64,000 nt of DNA, from contig CALKGQ010000007.1 of assembly GCA_938085425.1 (NCBI GenBank), positions 1 through 64,000 of the forward strand, given 5' to 3'. The position numbers and the translations under genes were made by a program. The notes beneath the pieces were generated by a model that saw only the letters and a list, made by a program, of their open reading frames with translations, made no database searches and was not told the origin of the DNA. Below are positions 13,385 to 33,410 of the stretch, piece by piece (the first letter of the stretch is position 1; each line of letters starts with the position of its first letter). The DNA is from an uncultured Flavobacteriales bacterium (GTDB taxonomy: Bacteria > Bacteroidota > Bacteroidia > Flavobacteriales_D > Sanyastnellaceae).

Positions 13385-15124
13385 ATGTCCTTGCGACGCG
13401 CCTCTGCTCCATCCAGTTTCTTGCCATTCCTCCAGTGGTTTGCAGCGTATTCTCGCTCCGACTGGAAGGGAGATTGGCGTGCAGGCTGCACAGTGGGGAT
13501 ACTTCTGGTCCCGCAAGCAATGGCGTATGCCACCATTGCAGGTCTGCCCGTGGTGTACGGCCTTTATGCAGCACTCGTTCCTCCTTTGGTGTATGGTTTT
13601 CTTGGAAACTCCCGGTCACTTGCCGTGGGACCCGTGGCGATGGACAGCCTTTTGGTGGCCGCAGGCCTGTCGGGATTGGCCGCAGTGGGGAGCGATGCCT
13701 ACATCCAATGGGCGCTTTTGCTCGCCTTGATGGTGGGGACCATGCAGTGGACCATGGGACGACTCAAAATGGGGTTTCTCATTCACTTTCTTTCACGGCC
13801 GGTCATCAGCGGCTTCACGACCGCAGCCGCGTTGTTGATTGGGGTGCATCAATTGCCGGCACTTTTGGGCATTGCTGTGGAGCGGACCGCTCGGCTGCAC
13901 GTGCTGTTGGGGGAGCTTTGGCTCCACCTTCCGTCCTTGCACATGCCTACAGCCATGCTTGGTCTGTCGAGTTTCGGACTGATGTGGGCATTGAAAAAGT
14001 GGGCTCCACAATGGCCTTCAGCACTGCTGTTGTTGGTGGCAGGCACATCTTGCTCGTGGTTTTGGGGCTGGTCTGGATTCGGGATTTTGACGGTTGGAAA
14101 TGTCCCACAAGGATTGCCCTCCTTCACGGTCCCAAGCGTTTCCTTGGGGCGCATCGAGACCCTCCTGCCCATGGCCGCAACCCTCGCCCTCGTGTCCTTC
14201 GTCGAGGCCATGGGGGTCACCAAGGCCTTGGCCACGTCCACCCCAAATGACGTGAAGCCCAACGATGAACTCAAGGCCCTGGGGTGGGCCAACTTGCTTG
14301 GTAGCTTGTTCCAGGGCTACCCGACTTCAGGCGGATTTTCCAGGTCTGCGGTGGCCCACCATGCTGGTGCGAAAACACCTGCCGCCTCCTGGGTGGCTGC
14401 TTCCGTGGTGGGGATGACGTTGCTCTTTTTGACGCCGCTTTTCCAACACCTGCCTTTTGCAGTGCTGGCCGCCATGATCATGGTGGCCGTCATGGGGCTG
14501 GTGGATGTAAAGTACCTGCGCGTTTTGTGGCAACAAGATCGGCTGGAAGCAGGCATCTTGGCCTTGACTGCCTTGGTCACTCTCTGGATCAGTCTCCCGA
14601 TGGGGATGGCCATAGGGGCCCTGGCTGGGTTGGGGGTGCTGGTCCAGCGAATGATGCAACCGCACGTGGCTGAATTGGGCAAGGTGCAAGGCGTCTACCG
14701 CAACCGCATGCGGTTTCCTGAGGCGGAGACAGATCCGGGAATCTTGATTGTCCGATACGATGGCCCCCTCACCTTTGCCAACAGAGCACATTTTGAATCT
14801 GAAATGGAGCGTCTTGTGCATGGCAAAGGCCCAACCTTGCAACTCATTGTGCTCCAGGCGGACACCATCTCGTACATCGATGCGACGTCTCGGGAAACGA
14901 TCAAGGCTTTGGTCAACCAATGGCATCAAAAAGGCTGGAAAACGAGCATTTCTGGGGCGATTGGCCCCGTTCGTGACGCCCTTGCGAAGGATGGCCTGTT
15001 GATGGCCGATCAACTTTCGTTTCAAATCAGTGTCGACCACGCTGTTCAACAATTCAACCAGCCAGGCTCTGTCCCTGACGCCGCCATGCACTTGGCCCAA
15101 CAACATTCTTCTTCAACTTCCTGA
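13385..15124 (+). CDS. SulP-family inorganic anion transporter
   Basis: The open frame starts inside the tRNA, but the ATG at 13385, four bases after a TATCTTTG, is the real start; 579 residues. SulP family traits: GCTVGILLVPQAMAYATIAG in TM1, the GLYAALVPPLVYG and SRSLAVGPVA segments, about ten to fourteen hydrophobic helices, PTSGGFSRSAV, and a C-terminal cytoplasmic STAS domain (about 455-560, with DTISYIDATSRETI). SulP proteins exchange or import sulfate, bicarbonate or other anions. The stop overlaps the start of the persulfide dioxygenase gene by one base, which suggests sulfate or sulfite movement linked to sulfide oxidation, an inference from context. Confidence 0.92.
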   Translation: MSLRRASAPSSFLPFLQWFAAYSRSDWKGDWRAGCTVGILLVPQAMAYATIAGLPVVYGLYAALVPPLVYGFLGNSRSLAVGPVAMDSLLVAAGLSGLAAVGSDAYIQWALLLALMVGTMQWTMGRLKMGFLIHFLSRPVISGFTTAAALLIGVHQLPALLGIAVERTARLHVLLGELWLHLPSLHMPTAMLGLSSFGLMWALKKWAPQWPSALLLLVAGTSCSWFWGWSGFGILTVGNVPQGLPSFTVPSVSLGRIETLLPMAATLALVSFVEAMGVTKALATSTPNDVKPNDELKALGWANLLGSLFQGYPTSGGFSRSAVAHHAGAKTPAASWVAASVVGMTLLFLTPLFQHLPFAVLAAMIMVAVMGLVDVKYLRVLWQQDRLEAGILALTALVTLWISLPMGMAIGALAGLGVLVQRMMQPHVAELGKVQGVYRNRMRFPEAETDPGILIVRYDGPLTFANRAHFESEMERLVHGKGPTLQLIVLQADTISYIDATSRETIKALVNQWHQKGWKTSISGAIGPVRDALAKDGLLMADQLSFQISVDHAVQQFNQPGSVPDAAMHLAQQHSSSTS

Positions 15125-16539
15125 TGAACATTCAACAGATTTACACGGGCTGCTTGGCCCAAGGTGCCTACTACATCGAAAGCAATGGAGAAGCTGCCAT
15201 CATCGACCCGCTGAGAGAGGTGCAACCTTACCTGGATTTGGCCCAATCCCGCGGCGCAGCCATTCGCTATGTCTTCGAGACTCATTTCCATGCGGATTTT
15301 GTCTCCGGGCATGTCACCCTCTCAGAGCGCACAGGGGCGCCGATTGTTTTTGGACCCCATGCAGAAACGACCTTCGATTCCACGGTGGCAGAGGACGGGC
15401 AAATCTTTCCCATTGGCGACATCTCGATTGAAGTGCTACACACTCCTGGGCATACGCAAGAAAGCACCACCTACTTGCTGCGAGATGCATCAGGAAAGGA
15501 ACATGCCATTTTTTCAGGGGACACGCTTTTTCTGGGAGATGTAGGCCGACCCGACTTGGCCCAAAAAGGGGAATGGACCATGGAGGACCTGGCCAAGCAA
15601 CTCTACCATAGCCTGCGGACCAAAATCATGCCGTTGCCGGACAGCACCATCGTGTATCCCGGGCACGGGGCGGGTTCTGCCTGCGGCAAGAACATGAGTT
15701 CTGAAACTGTGGGCACCTTGGGGGACCAAAAGGTCAACAACTATGCCCTTCGCGAGGACATGACGGAGGAGGAGTTCGTCAAAGAGCTCACCACAGGCCT
15801 CCTCCCTCCTCCCGGCTACTTCCCCATGAATGTGGCCATGAACAAACAGGGGTATGAGAGTTTTGAAGAGGTCCAAAAGCGCGGGGGCTTAGGATTGGAC
15901 CCCGCTGCGTTTGAATTGGCTGCCAATGAAACAGGAGCTGTGGTGCTGGACATCCGGGCCACCGATGCATTCATTGGCCAGCACATCCCGAGGTCCACGT
16001 TCATTGGTTTGGACGGCAACTTCGCGCCATGGGTGGGCGCCATGATTGTGGATGTCAAGCAGCCCATCCTCTTGGTGGGGGATGACCAAGCCCAAGTCGA
16101 CGAAGCTGTGACCCGTCTTTCACGTGTGGGCTTCGACAACACTTTGGGCCACCTTGAAGGCGGGCTCGAGGCATGGGTGAAAGCGGGCAAAGACACCGAC
16201 CACATTGAGGCCGTGGATGCAGAGGCCTTTGCCGCAGTGCGGCAAAACCATCCGGGGGTTTGCGTGCTGGACGTAAGGAAAGACGGCGAGTTTGCAGCAG
16301 AGCACGTTGACGGCGCACTGCACATCAGCTTGGCTGCCCTTGTCCAAAACATGCACCAATTGCCCAAGGACGAGCCTTTCTACATCCACTGTGCAGCCGG
16401 CTACAGAAGCTTGATCGCCCATTCCTTGCTCAAAGCGCGGGGATACCATCAAGCCATCGATGTGCTTGGGGGCTACGAAGCCATCGCAGAAACCAACGTA
16501 CCCAAGACGGATTTTGTCTGTCCGAGCACCGTTTCTTGA
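15124..16539 (+). CDS. CstB-like persulfide dioxygenase fused to two rhodanese domains
   Basis: 471 residues in three parts. The N-terminal metallo-beta-lactamase domain (1-245) has HFHADFVSGH at 54-63, LHTPGHTQES, FSGDTLFLGD and VYPGHGAGSACG, the iron-ligand set of ETHE1-type persulfide dioxygenases. A first rhodanese-like domain (about 265-360) has lost its catalytic cysteine (loop LLVGDDQ). The second (about 375-465) keeps HCAAGYRS with Cys423. This is the architecture of Staphylococcus CstB, which oxidises persulfides and makes thiosulfate. No signal peptide, so cytoplasmic. Co-transcribed with the SulP gene. Confidence 0.9.
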   Translation: MNIQQIYTGCLAQGAYYIESNGEAAIIDPLREVQPYLDLAQSRGAAIRYVFETHFHADFVSGHVTLSERTGAPIVFGPHAETTFDSTVAEDGQIFPIGDISIEVLHTPGHTQESTTYLLRDASGKEHAIFSGDTLFLGDVGRPDLAQKGEWTMEDLAKQLYHSLRTKIMPLPDSTIVYPGHGAGSACGKNMSSETVGTLGDQKVNNYALREDMTEEEFVKELTTGLLPPPGYFPMNVAMNKQGYESFEEVQKRGGLGLDPAAFELAANETGAVVLDIRATDAFIGQHIPRSTFIGLDGNFAPWVGAMIVDVKQPILLVGDDQAQVDEAVTRLSRVGFDNTLGHLEGGLEAWVKAGKDTDHIEAVDAEAFAAVRQNHPGVCVLDVRKDGEFAAEHVDGALHISLAALVQNMHQLPKDEPFYIHCAAGYRSLIAHSLLKARGYHQAIDVLGGYEAIAETNVPKTDFVCPSTVS

Positions 16540-25692: not shown

Positions 25693-26700
25693 ATGACACA
25701 TCAAGCTTTGAAAGACCTGCCCAAGGTGGAACTTCATTGCCATCTCGAATTGGCCTTCAGGAAGAAAACACTTCAGCGATGGGCGGTGGAAGCGGGCATG
25801 GGCATGGAGAAAGACAACGACTTTGCACAAGGCTTCCTGATCACAGAACCCATGGCGGACTTGCCGTCGGTGTTGCACAAGTTCCTCAACACAAGGGACC
25901 TGTTGGACTCGGCCGCCAAAGTGGAACAGTTGACGTTTGAAACATGCGAAGACATGTTTCTGGTGAGCAATGTCCGGGTCCTTGAACTGCGTTTTGCCCC
26001 TTCCTTTTTGTTGGATGCGCATCCCCACATGAAAGCCGACGATTTGTTGCACGCCATTCTGCGCGGCGTGGCCCGAGCCGAGGCCCAATACCCCATGGCC
26101 GTTGGGCTTTTGGGATTGCTCCAGCGGATCAAATCCGTCGAAGACAATGCTTGGTGGTGCGATTGGATTTTGGAACGCAAGCAACACTTTGTTGGTATGG
26201 ACCTCGCGGACGACGAGGTGGCCTTCCCAGCATCTCCCTTTGCCCCGTTGTTCCAAAAGGCCAAGGCCCAAGGCCTCGGGATCACAGTGCATGCCGGCGA
26301 ACCAAATGTGAAAGGCGCAGCCCGCAACATCTTGGTGGCCCTCGACGAATTGGGCGCGGACCGCATCGGTCACGGCGTCCAAGCCATCCACGACCTTGAA
26401 GTGGTGGGCAGGCTCGTGGACGATGCCATTCCACTGGAACTCTGCCCATGGAGCAATGTGCTGACCCAGGCTGTTCCCTCTCTGCACGCTCACCCCTTCA
26501 AAGCATTGATGGAGGCAGGGGTCCGCACCACCCTGAACACCGACGACCCTGGCGTGATGGACATCTCCATGATGGACGAGTGCAAGAACGCCACACAACA
26601 TTTGGGATTGACCCTCGAGGATTTGCAGCAATGCAACGATTGGGCCAAAGAAGCGTCCTTCATTCCCGCAAACCGCATCCAAAACATTTGGCCCTCATGA
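25693..26700 (+). CDS. Adenosine deaminase family protein
   Basis: Start taken as the ATG at 25693 (335 residues); a TTG six codons upstream is the alternative. Metal and catalytic motifs of the adenosine/AMP deaminase family: KVELHCHLE, VGLLGLLQR, VHAGEP, DRIGHGVQA, and LNTDDPGV. It would hydrolyse adenosine (or adenine, or a modified nucleoside) to the inosine-type product in purine salvage. The stop overlaps the start of the secreted arylsulfotransferase-like gene in an ATGA, an odd pairing of a cytoplasmic salvage enzyme with a secreted protein. Confidence 0.88.
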   Translation: MTHQALKDLPKVELHCHLELAFRKKTLQRWAVEAGMGMEKDNDFAQGFLITEPMADLPSVLHKFLNTRDLLDSAAKVEQLTFETCEDMFLVSNVRVLELRFAPSFLLDAHPHMKADDLLHAILRGVARAEAQYPMAVGLLGLLQRIKSVEDNAWWCDWILERKQHFVGMDLADDEVAFPASPFAPLFQKAKAQGLGITVHAGEPNVKGAARNILVALDELGADRIGHGVQAIHDLEVVGRLVDDAIPLELCPWSNVLTQAVPSLHAHPFKALMEAGVRTTLNTDDPGVMDISMMDECKNATQHLGLTLEDLQQCNDWAKEASFIPANRIQNIWPS

Positions 26701-28379
26701 CCCACTTTTCGACCTCCCTCCTTTTTGCCAGCCTGCTGTTCTGCGTCGCCTGGAGCACCTGGGGCCAGACCCAAACTGTTGGGACCTTTGTCAACACTGA
26801 GGAGGCGTGGCCTGGCTACACCTTGCTCGACCCCATGGGCACTGGCAACACCTACCTCATTGATGCATGCGGTCAAGTCGTCCAAAGTTGGTCCTCCGAA
26901 TACAACAGTGGCGGCGCATGCTACCTCTTGGACGACGGAAGCCTTCTCCGAGGGTGCCGCATCAATGGTGCATTTGCCGGAGGCGGTGTGGGTGGGCGCT
27001 TGGAGCAACGGTCGTGGGAAGGTGATCTCGTCTGGAGTTTGGATTTTGCCAATGACAGCATGCACCATCACCACGATGTAGCCTGGATGCCCAATGGCCA
27101 TGTCTTGGTCTTGGCGTGGGAGTCTCGCTCCGCACAGGAAGCAGCAGCAGCAGGAAGGGTCAACCCTCAATTGATGTGGCCTGAATCCATCACAGAGATT
27201 CAACCCACCTTGCCGGCAGGAGGAGAAGTGGTTTGGGAGTGGCACGCATGGGACCACTTGGTCCAAAATGCAGACGCCACCCTGGACCATTACGGAGAGC
27301 CATCCGACCATCCTGAACTGCTGGATGTGAACCATGCTGCGGTGGGCGGAGGAGGTGGCCCAGGAGGGGCCAACAGTGGCGATTGGATGCACGCCAACGC
27401 TGTGAATTACAATGCCGATTTGGACCAAATCGCGGTGAGCTCGCGCCGGTTCAACGAGGTTTGGATCTTGGACCACAACACCACCACAGAAGAAGCCCAA
27501 GGCGCTCAAGGCGACTTGCTGTACCGTTTTGGCAACCCGGCCGCTTATGGCTTGGGAGACGAGGACGACCAGGTGTTGTTTGGCCAACACGACGTGCAAT
27601 GGGTTCCGGCGGGACACCCCGATGCAGGAAGCTTGGTGGTCTACAACAATGGAGACGGCCGCCCAGGATGCAACTGCTCTTCCATCGATGTTTGGTCTCC
27701 ACCTGTCAACGGAGAAGGAAGCTACGAGTGGATGGCTGGCATGCCCTTTGGTCCAGAATCCTTGGATTGGAGCTATCCAGAAGTCCAGACGCCGACCTTC
27801 TTCAGCCCCAACATCAGCGGGGTCCAACCCCTGCCCAACGGCAATTATTTGATTTGTGAAGGCGCCGAAGGACACCTTTTTGAAGTCACCCAAGAAGGGA
27901 ATGTTGTTTGGGATTACATCAATCCTGAAGGCAATTTTGGAGCTGTGCCGCAAGGAAGCAACCCCAACCAAAACAGCGTTTTTAGGGCCTACCGCTACGG
28001 CATGGAACACCCTGCATTTGAGGGCAAGGTATTGGTCCCTGGCGACCCCGTCCAAGGTCCTGACGACCTGGACTGCATCCTCATGGGCGACACCGGCACC
28101 TCAGCCATCTCCCCGATTGCGACCGCAGGCCTTGCCCCCTCCCTCGCTCCATTTCCAAACCCAGCAAGAAACATGGTCCAATGGGAGTCTCCTTCTGACG
28201 GCACTTGGTCCCTCGTCAATGCCCAAGGCCAATCCATGATGACTGGCACCTCTTCCACTGGGTCCATGGAGTTCTTGGAAGTGGGGCATCTGCCCCGCGG
28301 ATTGTGGACACTGGTCTTTCAGCCGGAGAGCCAGACTTGGCAAAGGACCGCATCTCGTCTAATTTTGGTCCCTCATTGA
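26697..28379 (+). CDS. Secreted arylsulfotransferase-like beta-propeller protein 1 (T9SS cargo)
   Basis: 560 residues. Signal peptide 1-23 (ends TWGQ), a six-bladed-propeller body (about 30-480) and a T9SS type-A sorting domain from about 480 (FPNPARNMVQW). The body resembles arylsulfate sulfotransferase (ASST): HHHDVAWMPNG (His near 126), MHANAVNYN (His232, Asn234), SSR with Arg250, and GQHDVQWVP (His298). The H-x-N-(15)-R spacing equals His356/Asn358/Arg374 of E. coli ASST as I recall it. A cysteine cluster CNCSS follows. ASST moves sulfate between phenols without PAPS; the natural donor and acceptor here are unknown. Coupled to the adenosine deaminase gene by a 4-base overlap. Confidence 0.82.
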   Translation: MTHFSTSLLFASLLFCVAWSTWGQTQTVGTFVNTEEAWPGYTLLDPMGTGNTYLIDACGQVVQSWSSEYNSGGACYLLDDGSLLRGCRINGAFAGGGVGGRLEQRSWEGDLVWSLDFANDSMHHHHDVAWMPNGHVLVLAWESRSAQEAAAAGRVNPQLMWPESITEIQPTLPAGGEVVWEWHAWDHLVQNADATLDHYGEPSDHPELLDVNHAAVGGGGGPGGANSGDWMHANAVNYNADLDQIAVSSRRFNEVWILDHNTTTEEAQGAQGDLLYRFGNPAAYGLGDEDDQVLFGQHDVQWVPAGHPDAGSLVVYNNGDGRPGCNCSSIDVWSPPVNGEGSYEWMAGMPFGPESLDWSYPEVQTPTFFSPNISGVQPLPNGNYLICEGAEGHLFEVTQEGNVVWDYINPEGNFGAVPQGSNPNQNSVFRAYRYGMEHPAFEGKVLVPGDPVQGPDDLDCILMGDTGTSAISPIATAGLAPSLAPFPNPARNMVQWESPSDGTWSLVNAQGQSMMTGTSSTGSMEFLEVGHLPRGLWTLVFQPESQTWQRTASRLILVPH

Positions 28380-28427
28380 CCCATCCTACACTTGGTACTT
28401 ACAACTGACACCTTACACACCTATTTT

Positions 28428-30374
28428 ATGAAATACATTTCTCTTTTGACCGCGCTGTGCTTTGCCCAAGTAGCATTGGCCCAAAACACCATTGGCACGA
28501 TGGCGTACACCCCTGATGCCGTGGACGACGGCTACACCCTCCTTTATCCCCACAACCAACCCAACGTTTACTTGGTGGACCTTTGCGGGGAGGTGGTGCA
28601 CACGTGGAACAACGATGCAGGCTTCCGGCCCGGAAATGTTGCCTACCTCCAGGAAAATGGAGACCTGGTGTTCACCTACCGTCCACAGGTATTTGCCAAC
28701 GACGCGATTTGGGCAGGTGGTGGCGGACAAACTGTGGAACGCCGAACTTGGGACAACGAAGTTCTTTGGTCGTATTCCCTGAACGACAGCACCGCGCGCT
28801 TTCACCATGACATCGAAGTCAAGGACGATGGACATGTCTTTGCCATTGCATGGGAGCACTTCTCTGCAGACGAAGCCCTGGCAGCAGGACGCGACACCAT
28901 GCTCATCCCAGAGGAAGGCCTCTGGTCAGACATGATCCTTGAATTGGCGCCGAATGATTCGGGAAGTGCGGACATCGTCTGGGAATGGCATGCATGGGAC
29001 CACTTGGTGCAAGGTTTTGACAGCACCAAAGCCAACTTCGGCACCGTCAGCGAAGACCCCACCCTCATCGACCTCAACCATGGCACGCCCAGCTCACAGG
29101 CGAGCGATTGGCTGCACATCAATGCCATTGATTTCAATCCTTACTTCGGGCATTTGATGGTCAGCGTCCCCACATTCAACGAGCTTTGGATCATCGATTA
29201 CAACAACATCGATCCTGGAACGCTCTTGTGGCGTTGGGGCAACCCAGCAGCATATGGCATGGGTTCCGAAGAGGACCAGCAGCTATACTACCAACACGAC
29301 TGCCACTGGGTCTTTGACCACGTTACCGTGGGGAATCCTGACTTCGGGAAAATTGCCGTCTTCAACAACAGGGTGCCTGCAGGGGAAGACCAGTTGTTGA
29401 GCTCCGTGCACCTCCTCAATCCTGCCTACACGGACTATGACAACACGTATGCCGCGGATGAGACCACTGGACAATACTTCCCAACTGGGTTTGACTGGTC
29501 GTACACCGCGACGGACTCCATCTACTCCTCAGGGCTTTCATCCTTTCAGCGATTGGACAATGGGAACAGCCTCATCTGCTATGGCCGTTGGGGGGACACC
29601 CGCGAGGTCACACCTGAAGGGGAATTGGCGTGGCGTTACAAAACCCCTTTTGTGAATGCTGGTGGAACAGCGATTCCCGTGGCACAGGGCACCCTGCCCA
29701 CCATCAACCAAAACCTCACCTTTCGCGCACACCGCTACCCTGCCGACTATGCCGGGTTTGACAATGCGGCGTTGACGCCCCAAGGGGCGATTGAATTGGA
29801 GCCCATGCCTGTCCTTGCTTGCGGCGTTTTGGGATGCACTGACCCCATGGCTTGCAATTATGACAGCCTTGCCACCATTGCCATGGACGAATCCTGCATT
29901 TTCTTGGAACTGGAGGTCTTTGTCTTCTCCGGAAGCACTGCTGTCCCAGATCCAACAGGTGGACAAGGAGGCTTTTCTTTTGCCTGGTTCATGGAAGGTG
30001 ACTCTTTGGCCTTTGCCACAGACAACTCTTTGGACAGCCTCGCGGCAGGTGCTTATACGGTCACGGTGACGGACAGTTTGGGTTGTATGGCCAGTGCCGA
30101 TTTTGACATTGACGTGGTCGACGCCGTCGAAGGATTGGATTGGGATTGGACCCTTTTCCCCAACCCCGCTTCCCAGAGCCTCCGCATTCATGGTCATGCA
30201 CACCGCCAAGGGGTCTTCACCATTTGGTCCGCCACGGGCCAACCTGTGTCGACCCACTTGGATTCAGGGTCGGACCTCAACCTTGACCTCTCCGGACTCC
30301 CAACAGGGATGTACATCCTTCATTGGAAAGGTGATCAAGGACAACATCAACAACGGTTCCAGATTGTCAGGTGA
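28428..30374 (+). CDS. Secreted arylsulfotransferase-like protein 2, with active-site Arg replaced
   Basis: 648 residues, paralogue of the preceding gene and 48 bases downstream. Signal peptide 1-19 (ALAQ), propeller with FHHDIEV, EWHAWDHLVQG (identical to gene 1 for most of its length), DWLHINAID (His230, Asn232) and YQHDCHWV (His290). Where gene 1 has SSRRFNE, this one has SVPTFNE: Pro248 stands in place of the conserved arginine. After the propeller come one Cys-bounded module (LGCTDPMACNYDSLAT, then DESC), an Ig-like stretch, and a type-A T9SS domain (FPNPASQSLRIHG). It may be non-catalytic or use a changed mechanism. Confidence 0.82.
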   Translation: MKYISLLTALCFAQVALAQNTIGTMAYTPDAVDDGYTLLYPHNQPNVYLVDLCGEVVHTWNNDAGFRPGNVAYLQENGDLVFTYRPQVFANDAIWAGGGGQTVERRTWDNEVLWSYSLNDSTARFHHDIEVKDDGHVFAIAWEHFSADEALAAGRDTMLIPEEGLWSDMILELAPNDSGSADIVWEWHAWDHLVQGFDSTKANFGTVSEDPTLIDLNHGTPSSQASDWLHINAIDFNPYFGHLMVSVPTFNELWIIDYNNIDPGTLLWRWGNPAAYGMGSEEDQQLYYQHDCHWVFDHVTVGNPDFGKIAVFNNRVPAGEDQLLSSVHLLNPAYTDYDNTYAADETTGQYFPTGFDWSYTATDSIYSSGLSSFQRLDNGNSLICYGRWGDTREVTPEGELAWRYKTPFVNAGGTAIPVAQGTLPTINQNLTFRAHRYPADYAGFDNAALTPQGAIELEPMPVLACGVLGCTDPMACNYDSLATIAMDESCIFLELEVFVFSGSTAVPDPTGGQGGFSFAWFMEGDSLAFATDNSLDSLAAGAYTVTVTDSLGCMASADFDIDVVDAVEGLDWDWTLFPNPASQSLRIHGHAHRQGVFTIWSATGQPVSTHLDSGSDLNLDLSGLPTGMYILHWKGDQGQHQQRFQIVR

Positions 30375-30395
30375 TTCTGTCAGCATCGGAAAAGG

Positions 30396-30430
30396 AAAGC
30401 CCAAGCCGTAACCGGTTTGGGCTTTTTTTT
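30396..30430 (+). terminator. Rho-independent terminator after arylsulfotransferase-like gene 2
   Basis: AAAGCCCAAGCCG and CGGTTTGGGCTTT pair across a short TAAC loop and the T run extends to 30430. It starts 22 bases after the stop codon. Confidence 0.85.
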
Positions 30431-30457
30431 GGTCCGTGAGCGGTTACCTTGCATCTC

Positions 30458-31237
30458 ATGAATCGCACCATTGTCTCGTCGGAGAAAGACGGCATATTGA
30501 CGTTGACCCTCCACCGCCCCGAAGTCTTCAACAGCTTCAACCAGAGCATGGGAAGGGCCTTTCAAGAAGCATTGGACGACGCCTCCCAACGCGTTTCTGT
30601 TCGTTGTGTGGTGATCCGAGGGGAAGGCAAGGCGTTTTGCGCCGGTCAAGACCTCAAAGAAGTGACTTCCGAAGCCTCCCCAGGGTTCAAGGTGATTGTG
30701 GAGGAGACTTACAACCGGAGCATCCGTCGCATTTGCAGCATGGAAAAGCCTGTCATTGCCGCGGTGAATGGGGTGGCAGCGGGAGCAGGAGCCAACATCG
30801 CCCTGGCATGTGATTTCGTCGTGGCCAAGGAATCCGCCAAGTTCATCCAAGCTTTTGCCAACATTGGCTTGATCCCCGACAGTGGAGGCACCTATTGGCT
30901 GCCCCGCCTTGTGGGCATGGCACGCGCCAAAGAACTCACCATGTTGGGCGCCCCTCTCACCGCAAGCGAGGCGCATCAGATGGGCTTGATCCATCGTTCA
31001 GTCGCGGAGGACCAGTGGGAGGATGAAGTGCACACCCTGGCCATGCGCTTGGCCCAGATGCCCACCAAAGGACTTGGGTGGACCAAACGTGCACTGCACG
31101 AGAGCATGGGCAACACCCTTCAAGAGCAACTCTCTTTGGAATTGGACCTTCAGTTCCAAGCGGCGGAAACAAACGATTACGCCGAAGGCGTGCAAGCGTT
31201 CTTGGACAAGCGTCGTCCCAAATTCACTGGAACATGA
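30458..31237 (+). CDS. Enoyl-CoA hydratase/isomerase family protein (PaaG-like)
   Basis: 259 residues from the ATG at 30458; an upstream TTG in frame is rejected. Crotonase fold with oxyanion-hole segments GEGKAFCAGQDLKEV (about residue 60) and NGVAAGAGANIALACD. The IGLIPDSGGTYWLPRLVGMA stretch with Asp is like PaaG (ring-1,2-epoxyphenylacetyl-CoA isomerase) rather than the Glu-Glu pair of standard hydratases. No other phenylacetate genes are present, so a beta-oxidation or aromatic role is open. The stop overlaps the following DUF551-like gene. TACCTTGC five bases upstream is a weak -7 match. Confidence 0.88.
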   Translation: MNRTIVSSEKDGILTLTLHRPEVFNSFNQSMGRAFQEALDDASQRVSVRCVVIRGEGKAFCAGQDLKEVTSEASPGFKVIVEETYNRSIRRICSMEKPVIAAVNGVAAGAGANIALACDFVVAKESAKFIQAFANIGLIPDSGGTYWLPRLVGMARAKELTMLGAPLTASEAHQMGLIHRSVAEDQWEDEVHTLAMRLAQMPTKGLGWTKRALHESMGNTLQEQLSLELDLQFQAAETNDYAEGVQAFLDKRRPKFTGT

Positions 31238-31518
31238 ACGCACATTGGATCGATGTGCAGGTAGAACTGCCCGAGGACGACCAAAGGGTGCTGGGATACA
31301 TCCCGGACAACAAGGTGTTTTTGCCTGGAAGAGGTCTTGAGTTCGAGCTGCGCGAAGTGGTCGTTTTGCGGTTTTGCCTGAACTTTTACAAAGACAAGCC
31401 TGACAAGTTGAAGAAACACGGCCTCCACTTTTGGGCTGGAGAGGGAAACAGCAACCACTTCTTCAACGATGTGACCCATTGGCGCCCGATGCCCTCAGGA
31501 CCTGAGGGAGAGCCTTGA
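31234..31518 (+). CDS. Small DUF551-like protein
   Basis: 94 residues, start overlapping the upstream stop in an ATGA. The N-terminal WIDVQVELPEDDQRVLGYIP and C-terminal VTHWRPMPSGPEGEP match the two ends of the DUF551 family (WxxV...LPxxGxxVLxY ... ITHWMPLPxPP), otherwise known mainly from phage and plasmid genes. No signal peptide. The role with an enoyl-CoA hydratase is unknown. Convergent with the third arylsulfotransferase-like gene, 17 bases between stops. Confidence 0.7.
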   Translation: MNAHWIDVQVELPEDDQRVLGYIPDNKVFLPGRGLEFELREVVVLRFCLNFYKDKPDKLKKHGLHFWAGEGNSNHFFNDVTHWRPMPSGPEGEP

Positions 31519-31535
31519 CTGCACCTGCGAGGCAT

Positions 31536-33410
31536 TCAGTCGCAAACGCTGCCAATGTTGGCCAACAAAACGAGCAAATCGCCAATCCCAACCGTGCCGT
31601 CCTCATCCAAATCTCCTGGGCAAGGCGCAGCAAGTACAAAGGCGCAACTGCCATCATCAGAGGTGGCACTGGGGACAAAGTTGGTCGCTGAAGGATAGGT
31701 GCACCCAGCCAAAGAGAAGCCCTCGCACTCCCCTCCTTCTTGTGCCCATGGATTGTAAGCCACATCCATGGGGTCCAGACATCCAAGACAAGGTGCCAGT
31801 TCGTTGTAACAAAAAGAGCCCAGATCAACCGCTCCACCGCCTTCCTCCAACACCACCTCACGGACCAAATCCTCTACGGTACCATCTGGATGCACAAACG
31901 CATAGAAATGAGGTCCTTGGGTCAGAAAAACCTTGAATTGAGCCGCTTCCCACCCCACTGTTTCAGGAGACAACGGCACGGAATTGATGACTTCACCAGT
32001 GCTGGAGAGCCTCGCGTATCCCGCTTGAGACGGGTCCACATCTCCTGACCCTGCGACTTGGGCAAAGTCCACGCGTGTCGTGACGGCATAAATGCAACTG
32101 TTGTCAGGGTAAAGCGCCTCTGGCTCATAGTTCTCCGCAGTATCATCCAGGCAACCAAATGCTTCACTTGCCTCCAAAACACAATCCGTCTCATGCAGTA
32201 CGTGCGTGGAGGTTGAAGCATTCCACGCCTCTTCGTCGGTGCAACCTGAGAGCATTCCCAACGGATATTTTCTGGCACGGTACACATTCATGCTGGTGCC
32301 AAACTTCACTTCCCATGCGATGTCCCCGGCAGCGGTCACTTCTGTGACCCGTGCGCCTTGTCCACCGCCGCTGGTGCCCCAAGCAATCAAGGTGTTCCCA
32401 TTGTCCAGACGCTCAGCACTGCCCTGGGTGGGGCCATACACCCCATCGGGGTGGGCAAACTGCCACACACGGGTCGCAGTGAAATCCAAAGTGTCCAACT
32501 CCAACTCCAACACACGTGACGTGACCTCTCCTTCTGGATCGAAGACGTGGTTGTCGAACAACAAAAGGCGACCTTGTCCCAGGTCGTGGACATCATGCTG
32601 GACCACAAAGCCTTCCCAAATGGGATCGTCCAAAATGAAATCTGAATCTGCCCCTCCCAACTTCCAGTGAATGGACCAATCTTCCGGTCGAAGTCGGACA
32701 ATCTGGTTTCGATTTCTCATGCTCAGCAAGAGGCCCCCATGGGCATCCACTTGGACGGCATTCCAATGAAGCGCATCCACTGTATTGAAGGACAAATTGT
32801 CCAACAGAGGGTCCAGAGGCATCTCTTCTTCCCCACTCCATTGGCGCAAAATGGTCTCATCTGGGGCCATGTGCAGGAGCCTTGGATTCAGCAAGGTGGC
32901 ATCGCTGGAACCTCCAAATTCAGAGAGGTCCGTCGGGATTTGCTCCAGCGAAACCACGAGATAGCTCCCGTCGTCGAAGAGGTGAACGTCGTGGTAATCG
33001 TCGTCGGGTTCCAACGTTTGGGTCAGGGTGTCTAGCACATTCCAATTTCGGTCAACCACAGTCCATTTGCGGAGGGTGTAGTCGTACCAAACGAATTCAC
33101 CTTCATTCCAAGGTTTCATGTAGAAGCCTCTGTAGGGTGTTTGTTCCGCCCAAGTGAGCTGGGCGGAGTCATTCAGCAAGGCGGCAAACATGGACGTCGG
33201 TCCCTGCACCAAAGACAGAAGAACGTCCCCCTCCTGCACCTCCAATCCCGCTGGATTTCCTTCGTCGTCCATTCCTCCGGCAGGAACAAGGACGGTCAAA
33301 TCCACCTGATCGAGTGCATCTTGGGCATGGGACCACATCGGACACGTCCAAAAACAACATCCGGCGACGACGAGGGTCCATTGAGAGAAGAAAGAAGCTG
33401 ACTTTTTCAC
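31536..33410 (-). CDS. Secreted arylsulfotransferase-like protein 3 with Cys-bounded modules and dockerin-like end
   Basis: The open frame extends far upstream, but the signal peptide MKKSASFFSQWTLVV begins at a GTG at 33410 (624 residues); ATG is absent nearby. The propeller keeps DDYHDVHLF (His140), LHWNAVQV (His215, Asn217), SMRNRNQI (Arg232) and VQHDVHDLG (His272), so all putative active residues are retained. Four Cys-bounded modules follow (about 395-590, such as GCLDDTAENYEPEA and GCTYPSATNFVPSA). The C-terminus GDLDEDGTVGIGDLLVLL is a single EF-hand/dockerin-like turn and there is no typical T9SS type-A or -B domain, unlike its two paralogues. Confidence 0.8.
   Translation of the reverse strand: MKKSASFFSQWTLVVAGCCFWTCPMWSHAQDALDQVDLTVLVPAGGMDDEGNPAGLEVQEGDVLLSLVQGPTSMFAALLNDSAQLTWAEQTPYRGFYMKPWNEGEFVWYDYTLRKWTVVDRNWNVLDTLTQTLEPDDDYHDVHLFDDGSYLVVSLEQIPTDLSEFGGSSDATLLNPRLLHMAPDETILRQWSGEEEMPLDPLLDNLSFNTVDALHWNAVQVDAHGGLLLSMRNRNQIVRLRPEDWSIHWKLGGADSDFILDDPIWEGFVVQHDVHDLGQGRLLLFDNHVFDPEGEVTSRVLELELDTLDFTATRVWQFAHPDGVYGPTQGSAERLDNGNTLIAWGTSGGGQGARVTEVTAAGDIAWEVKFGTSMNVYRARKYPLGMLSGCTDEEAWNASTSTHVLHETDCVLEASEAFGCLDDTAENYEPEALYPDNSCIYAVTTRVDFAQVAGSGDVDPSQAGYARLSSTGEVINSVPLSPETVGWEAAQFKVFLTQGPHFYAFVHPDGTVEDLVREVVLEEGGGAVDLGSFCYNELAPCLGCLDPMDVAYNPWAQEGGECEGFSLAGCTYPSATNFVPSATSDDGSCAFVLAAPCPGDLDEDGTVGIGDLLVLLANIGSVCD

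Follow-up and report, generated by a model that had tools for sequence, protein, structure and literature searches.

Genes 1 and 2 of the window, by which we mean the whole stretch of 64,000 nucleotides analyzed here, are best explained as an old tandem pair of exported sulfotransferases with the fold of the arylsulfate sulfotransferases (ASSTs), in which the second enzyme is active, has a rebuilt pocket and uses a different donor or acceptor; we assign this reading a probability of roughly 55%. Gene 1 (A-type) carries the arginine that corresponds to Arg374 of the Escherichia coli enzyme, and gene 2 (B-type, or Pro-type) has proline at this position. Considering that the arginine is replaced throughout the clade to which gene 2 belongs and that every catalytic histidine is kept, gene 2 and its relatives are probably re-tooled enzymes rather than broken ones. 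A third ASST gene, on the opposite strand, belongs to a separate branch of the family. The coding regions and the residues discussed below are the following.

26697–28379, plus strand: gene 1, A-type ASST of 560 amino acids, the Arg-type partner in the tandem pair
27069–27077, plus strand: H125-H126-D127 of gene 1, first histidine motif, presumed counterpart of E. coli His252
27390–27398, plus strand: H232-A-N234 of gene 1, aligned with E. coli His356 and Asn358
27444–27446, plus strand: Arg250 of gene 1, aligned with E. coli Arg374
27585–27593, plus strand: Q297-H298-D299 of gene 1, with H298 the predicted nucleophile (E. coli His436)
27645–27662, plus strand: NNGDGR loop of gene 1, N317 to R322, with R322 corresponding to E. 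coli R455
28428–30374, plus strand: gene 2, B-type (Pro-type) ASST of 648 amino acids
28797–28811, plus strand: R124-F-H126-H127-D128 of gene 2
29115–29123, plus strand: H230-I-N232 of gene 2
29169–29171, plus strand: Pro248 of gene 2, in the alignment column of Arg374
29289–29300, plus strand: Y288-Q-H290-D of gene 2, with H290 the predicted nucleophile
29364–29372, plus strand: N313-N314-R315 of gene 2, with R315 aligned with E. coli Gly452
30153–30365, plus strand: T9SS type-A sorting domain of gene 2, profile match
31536–33410, minus strand: gene 3, Cpz4-like ASST of 624 amino acids, separate branch
32988–32996, minus strand: Y139-H140-D141 of gene 3
32760–32768, minus strand: H215-W-N217 of gene 3
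32715–32717, minus strand: Arg232 of gene 3, in the Arg374 column, at +17 through a one-residue gap
32592–32600, minus strand: Q271-H272-D273 of gene 3
31539–31706, minus strand: C-terminal region of gene 3 with a dockerin-like (DxDxDG...DLL) end

The window lies within a genome of 2.07 Mb that is 97.8% complete and whose named relatives are chiefly uncultured Flavobacteriales. All three open reading frames (26697–28379 and 28428–30374 on the plus strand, 33410–31536 on the minus strand) translate cleanly and match PF05935 and PF14269 above the Pfam curated cut-offs, confirming the suggestion of an earlier note on this DNA that three ASST-like genes lie here. By inspection, their N-termini read as signal peptides ending before a glutamine (WG-Q, LA-Q and HA-Q in genes 1–3, respectively). 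The same note had assigned type-A T9SS sorting domains to two of the proteins; that of gene 2 passes the curated thresholds (39.8 bits for a threshold of 23 and 37.2 for one of 27), but the tail of gene 1 falls below them (17.6 against 23 and 13.5 against 27), and we infer the export of the gene 1 protein. The Por_Secre_tail cut-off is exceeded at at least 35 places in the genome, indicating that T9SS cargo is common there. The gene neighbors are ordinary: an adenosine deaminase precedes the three genes, an enoyl-CoA hydratase-like gene separates gene 2 from gene 3, and SmpB, PEPCK and others lie nearby. A fourth ASST of the genome, on another contig (G000:C4:16564-18153, L067; also given as C4:16759-18045), is A-like with the arginine present and ends in a dockerin-like tail. 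Elsewhere in the window, 15124–16539 on the plus strand encodes a protein that joins a metallo-beta-lactamase fold to a rhodanese domain and resembles persulfide dioxygenases.

The earlier note had made the presence of a sulfotransferase fold a test of its proposal. The cores of genes 1 and 2 were modeled with AlphaFold2 on 55-sequence alignments, with mean pLDDT values of 92.3 and 92.0, respectively, and a Foldseek search of the whole PDB returned Cpz4, the caprazamycin sulfotransferase of Streptomyces (PDB 9KF4, 9KF6), as the first match of both models (E values of 6e-16 for one and 3e-17 for the other), followed by E. coli ASST (E about 1e-11), so that the predicted fold is that of the family. 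TM-scores were moderate, 0.51–0.60, as expected at 13–19% identity. Cpz4 is the best PDB match throughout, by fold for the A and B models and by sequence for gene 3 (E 2e-25), with which its His, Asn, Arg and QHD columns align; it differs in keeping the arginine that gene 2 has lost, and gene 3 has in addition a long C-terminal region with the dockerin-like end. The likeness to ASST of E. coli CFT073 (PDB 3ELQ, 3ETS, 3ETT, 4P04) comprises the propeller fold, the H-x-N motif, the QH nucleophile motif and the DNG/NNG loop, and gene 1 also retains Arg374 at +18 and the loop residue Arg455. The differences are an identity of 13–16% in structural alignments and, in gene 2, proline at Arg374, arginine at Gly452 and the T9SS tail.

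When 68 members of the family were aligned with partial sequences of E. coli ASST and Cpz4, H232, N234, R250 and H298 of gene 1 shared columns with E. coli H356, N358, R374 and H436, which bears out the equivalences and the +18 spacing proposed in the earlier note. The H-x-N motif is present in all three genes, as claimed, and the nucleophile column holds the histidine of QHD in each. At the Arg374 column genes 1 and 3 keep arginine, and gene 2, together with its clade, has proline: P248 of the SVPTFNE segment stands in this column, as the note had read it, and the arginine of gene 3 at +17 likewise falls there once a one-residue gap is allowed. The claim that all three carry the HHD and QHD motifs stands for QHD, and for HHD in genes 1 and 2 only, given that the first motif of gene 3 is DYHD (DLHD in Cpz4). 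HHD of genes 1 and 2 and YHD of gene 3 align with the Cpz4 histidine; the E. coli fragment starts at residue 349. The Thr501 column holds Ile or Leu in genes 1 and 2 with Ser adjoining, in a region where the local alignment is uncertain. Gene 2 had also been called otherwise very similar; genes 1 and 2 share the ASST family but are just 37% identical over 475 amino acids.

We assembled 172 A/B-type sequences with the key columns from 100 relatives and 80 named genome loci. The Arg374 column is P in 74, R in 68, H in 18 and A, K, F or N in 11, with one sequence gapped, and sharing of the proline by 74 homologues is far beyond chance. All 74 Pro-type sequences retain both flanking histidines, the nucleophile histidine and both asparagines. 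In a careful tree of 70 rows, all 24 B-type rows group in a single fork with support of 100/98, from which A rows are absent; its sister, L052, is also Pro-bearing. A larger quick tree places three Pro-bearing sequences outside B (L141, on a long branch, L153 and L065), implying that the proline arose a few times, with the great majority forming one clade. This clade extends over Flavobacteriales, many Saprospiraceae and other Bacteroidota. To judge from the sequences, the loss of the arginine is thus ancestral to a large clade and not peculiar to gene 2, so the original picture of a single copy losing its arginine was wrong in scale. That gene 2 was hit by a chance or harmful mutation is rejected, the proline being clade-wide and dN/dS being 0.03–0.10 in unsaturated B pairs within the genus, a range that indicates strong purifying selection; the corresponding values in A pairs are about 0.08–0.13, and many pairs have saturated synonymous sites.

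Histidine at the Arg374 position, found in many Bacteroidota PF05935-like proteins (L139, L146, L148, L155, L158–L160 and others), constitutes a second non-Arg class, which includes proteins of the cultured genera Flavobacterium, Nonlabens and Hymenobacter. Such proteins (for example those from Flavobacterium paronense, Nonlabens xylanidelens and Hymenobacter negativus) share with the B-type the family, the histidines and the non-Arg site, but differ in retaining NNG and lacking the B-clade signature. In a divergent ASST-like subgroup (L114:1-4891, with three tandem copies, and L103:2129-3691), Tyr and Met occupy the first two histidine columns, and the QH column and the arginine are retained. 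One A-type copy (G023:C32:84952-86286, L068) is interrupted by an internal TAA stop, which may reflect gene decay or a misassembly.

The tandem arrangement recurs. Of the 64 B loci whose surroundings could be read far enough, 40 are immediately preceded by an A-type gene in the same orientation and 2 have one downstream; no adjoining A gene was found at the remaining 22. The tandem occurs in both Flavobacteriales and Saprospiraceae. The earlier proposal of duplication with division of labor is therefore supported for genes 1 and 2, for which separate supported clades, the recurring tandem, clade-wide active-site differences and purifying selection speak, but is not supported for gene 3.

Gene 3, a Cpz4-like ASST, stands apart and is not a third copy of the A–B duplication. 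It is about 23% identical to gene 2, its comparison with gene 1 gave no significant match, and it lies with Cpz4 on a branch apart from genes 1 and 2; a recent triplication of the three genes is accordingly rejected. Its orthologue lies beyond gene 2 on the opposite strand in two other genomes (G005 and G006), as in the window. A T9SS sorting-domain profile search of gene 3 gave no match. The EF-hand/dockerin-like end described in the earlier note is matched by no Pfam family, but similar tails end other proteins of the genome: at least 11 different proteins finish, at their very C-terminus, in the pattern DLNGDGxVxxxDLLxxLxxFGxxC-stop, often preceded by GCTYxxAxNY...DDGSC repeats (31539–31706 on the minus strand, L166, L168, L173–L175, L177, L178 and L182). 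This recurring end may represent an undescribed kind of tail for surface attachment or sorting.

The proline of the B-type is accompanied by other changes near the active site. An arginine follows the conserved Asn-Asn pair (E. coli N451-G452), forming NNR, in 66 of 74 Pro-type sequences compared with about 1 of 68 Arg-type sequences. R124, two residues before HHD, is present in 72 of the 74 Pro-type proteins. At the position of R85, an arginine that 83 of 94 non-B proteins have, B-type proteins mostly carry K, M or another residue. Across the B clade, the proline is nearly invariant along with R315, R124 and W95. A Saprospiraceae-side sub-clade nested in B (L133, L145, L149, L152) has Arg374 back, and its NNR position is occupied by F or A instead of arginine; the fork containing it has support of 100/91.

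Covariation was calculated as mutual information with average-product correction. The strongest partner of the Arg/Pro site is A296/B288, two residues before the nucleophile histidine; further partners are at A372/B369 (E. coli 500) and A123–124/B124–125, just before HHD. The strongest columns adjoin catalytic motifs, so that the motif-side residues changed together. The pair formed with A319/B315, the NNR position, ranks 61st of 84,255 column pairs, and R315 covaries more strongly with R322 of the NNGxGR loop, present in the A-type and E. coli enzymes, so that R315 may replace R322 rather than Arg374. Independent contrasts between Arg374 and NNR number four on supported branches, with two to three concordant and essentially none discordant, and the sign test is not significant, four contrasts being too few for that. 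Together with R322 being the top partner of R315, this weakens the idea of a statistically independent exchange of Arg374 for Arg452. On our reading of the sequence patterns (I-x-L-S-S-R and I-x-V-F-N-N-R), Arg374 and the NNR position would each stand at the end of the equivalent strand, in two successive propeller blades. That the sulfate-coordinating arginine moved to the next blade in a large Bacteroidota clade, through loss of Arg374 and gain of an arginine at the Gly452 position, with a resulting change of substrate and a two-enzyme unit formed with the Arg-type partner encoded beside it, is a tentative proposal, which we consider doubtful in this full form.

Three other explanations have to be weighed against an active B enzyme with a rebuilt pocket. 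B-type proteins could be pseudoenzymes that bind sulfated ligands, or bind or assist the adjacent A partner, without catalysis. The clade-wide loss of an active-site residue listed for the characterized enzymes (PMC13426309, PMC10932419) and the recurrence of the tandem speak for this, but a non-catalytic binder has no need of the histidines and asparagines that all 74 Pro-type sequences keep, and 22 B loci lack an adjacent A gene; we regard the explanation as unlikely. A pure binding role in particular, while possible, is the less likely reading because all catalytic histidines are invariant. The coordinated replacement of pocket-motif residues would also fit a B enzyme acting on another group or in another reaction, such as sulfate-ester hydrolysis or phosphoryl transfer, and no PF00884 sulfatases were found in the 97.8% complete source genome, leaving room for another sulfate-ester enzyme. 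Against this, the nucleophile and its flanking residues are unchanged, and linkage to sulfatase loss is lacking, A–B pairs being present in genomes both with and without sulfatases, for which reason a functional tie of the pair to these enzymes is rejected; several congeners have two to five PF00884 sulfatases. A different reaction appears slightly more improbable again.

The third explanation holds that Arg374 is dispensable in Bacteroidota ASSTs, the proline being neutral drift in one clade and B doing the same job as A. The site is indeed non-Arg in 103 of 172 homologues (74 with P and 29 with H, A, K, F or N), and the latter 29 mostly carry NNG; this branch may therefore be able to do without the arginine. 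Drift, in turn, would not give the near-invariance of the proline together with R315, R124 and W95, nor the return of Arg374 in one sub-clade coinciding with the loss of R315, and we give this explanation little credence. The most likely account of the B-type is an active sulfohistidine enzyme with a remodeled anion or donor pocket.

The most economical mechanism would be an old A–B duplication after which B retained sulfohistidine chemistry and its donor/anion pocket was rebuilt. Both proteins, which share the ASST propeller fold, would be exported and would act as sulfotransferases independently of PAPS: in each, a sulfuryl group would probably pass from a sulfate ester to the QHD histidine (H298 in A, H290 in B) and from there to the acceptor. 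In B, the pocket would have been rebuilt as a unit: the equivalent of Arg374 became proline, the residue after Asn-Asn became arginine (R315), R124 came to precede the first HHD and the residue two before the catalytic histidine changed. A probable role of R315 is to help bind the sulfuryl anion, and the donor or acceptor of B is probably unlike that of its A partner.

The E. coli active-site residues His252, His356, Asn358, Arg374, His436 and Thr501 are reported to be conserved across published arylsulfotransferases, and the natural substrate of ASST is still unknown after 40 years (PMC13426309); the same five active-site residues were found in 17 Sutterella proteins (PMC10932419). The residue-conservation sets of these two studies leave the Bacteroidota branch of the A and B genes unsampled. 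A literature search that covered few subscription papers returned no paper on the Pro-type clade, and one for T9SS-linked arylsulfotransferases nothing on the A and B proteins. The Pro-type sequences form a large natural clade that lacks Arg374 yet has every histidine. Since its members often have an Arg-type partner as neighbor, this clade is a ready-made test of the role of the arginine, with the sub-clade showing the reverse exchange as a second natural comparison, and the A–B pair points to an entire, still unexplored group of exported sulfotransferases in Bacteroidota.
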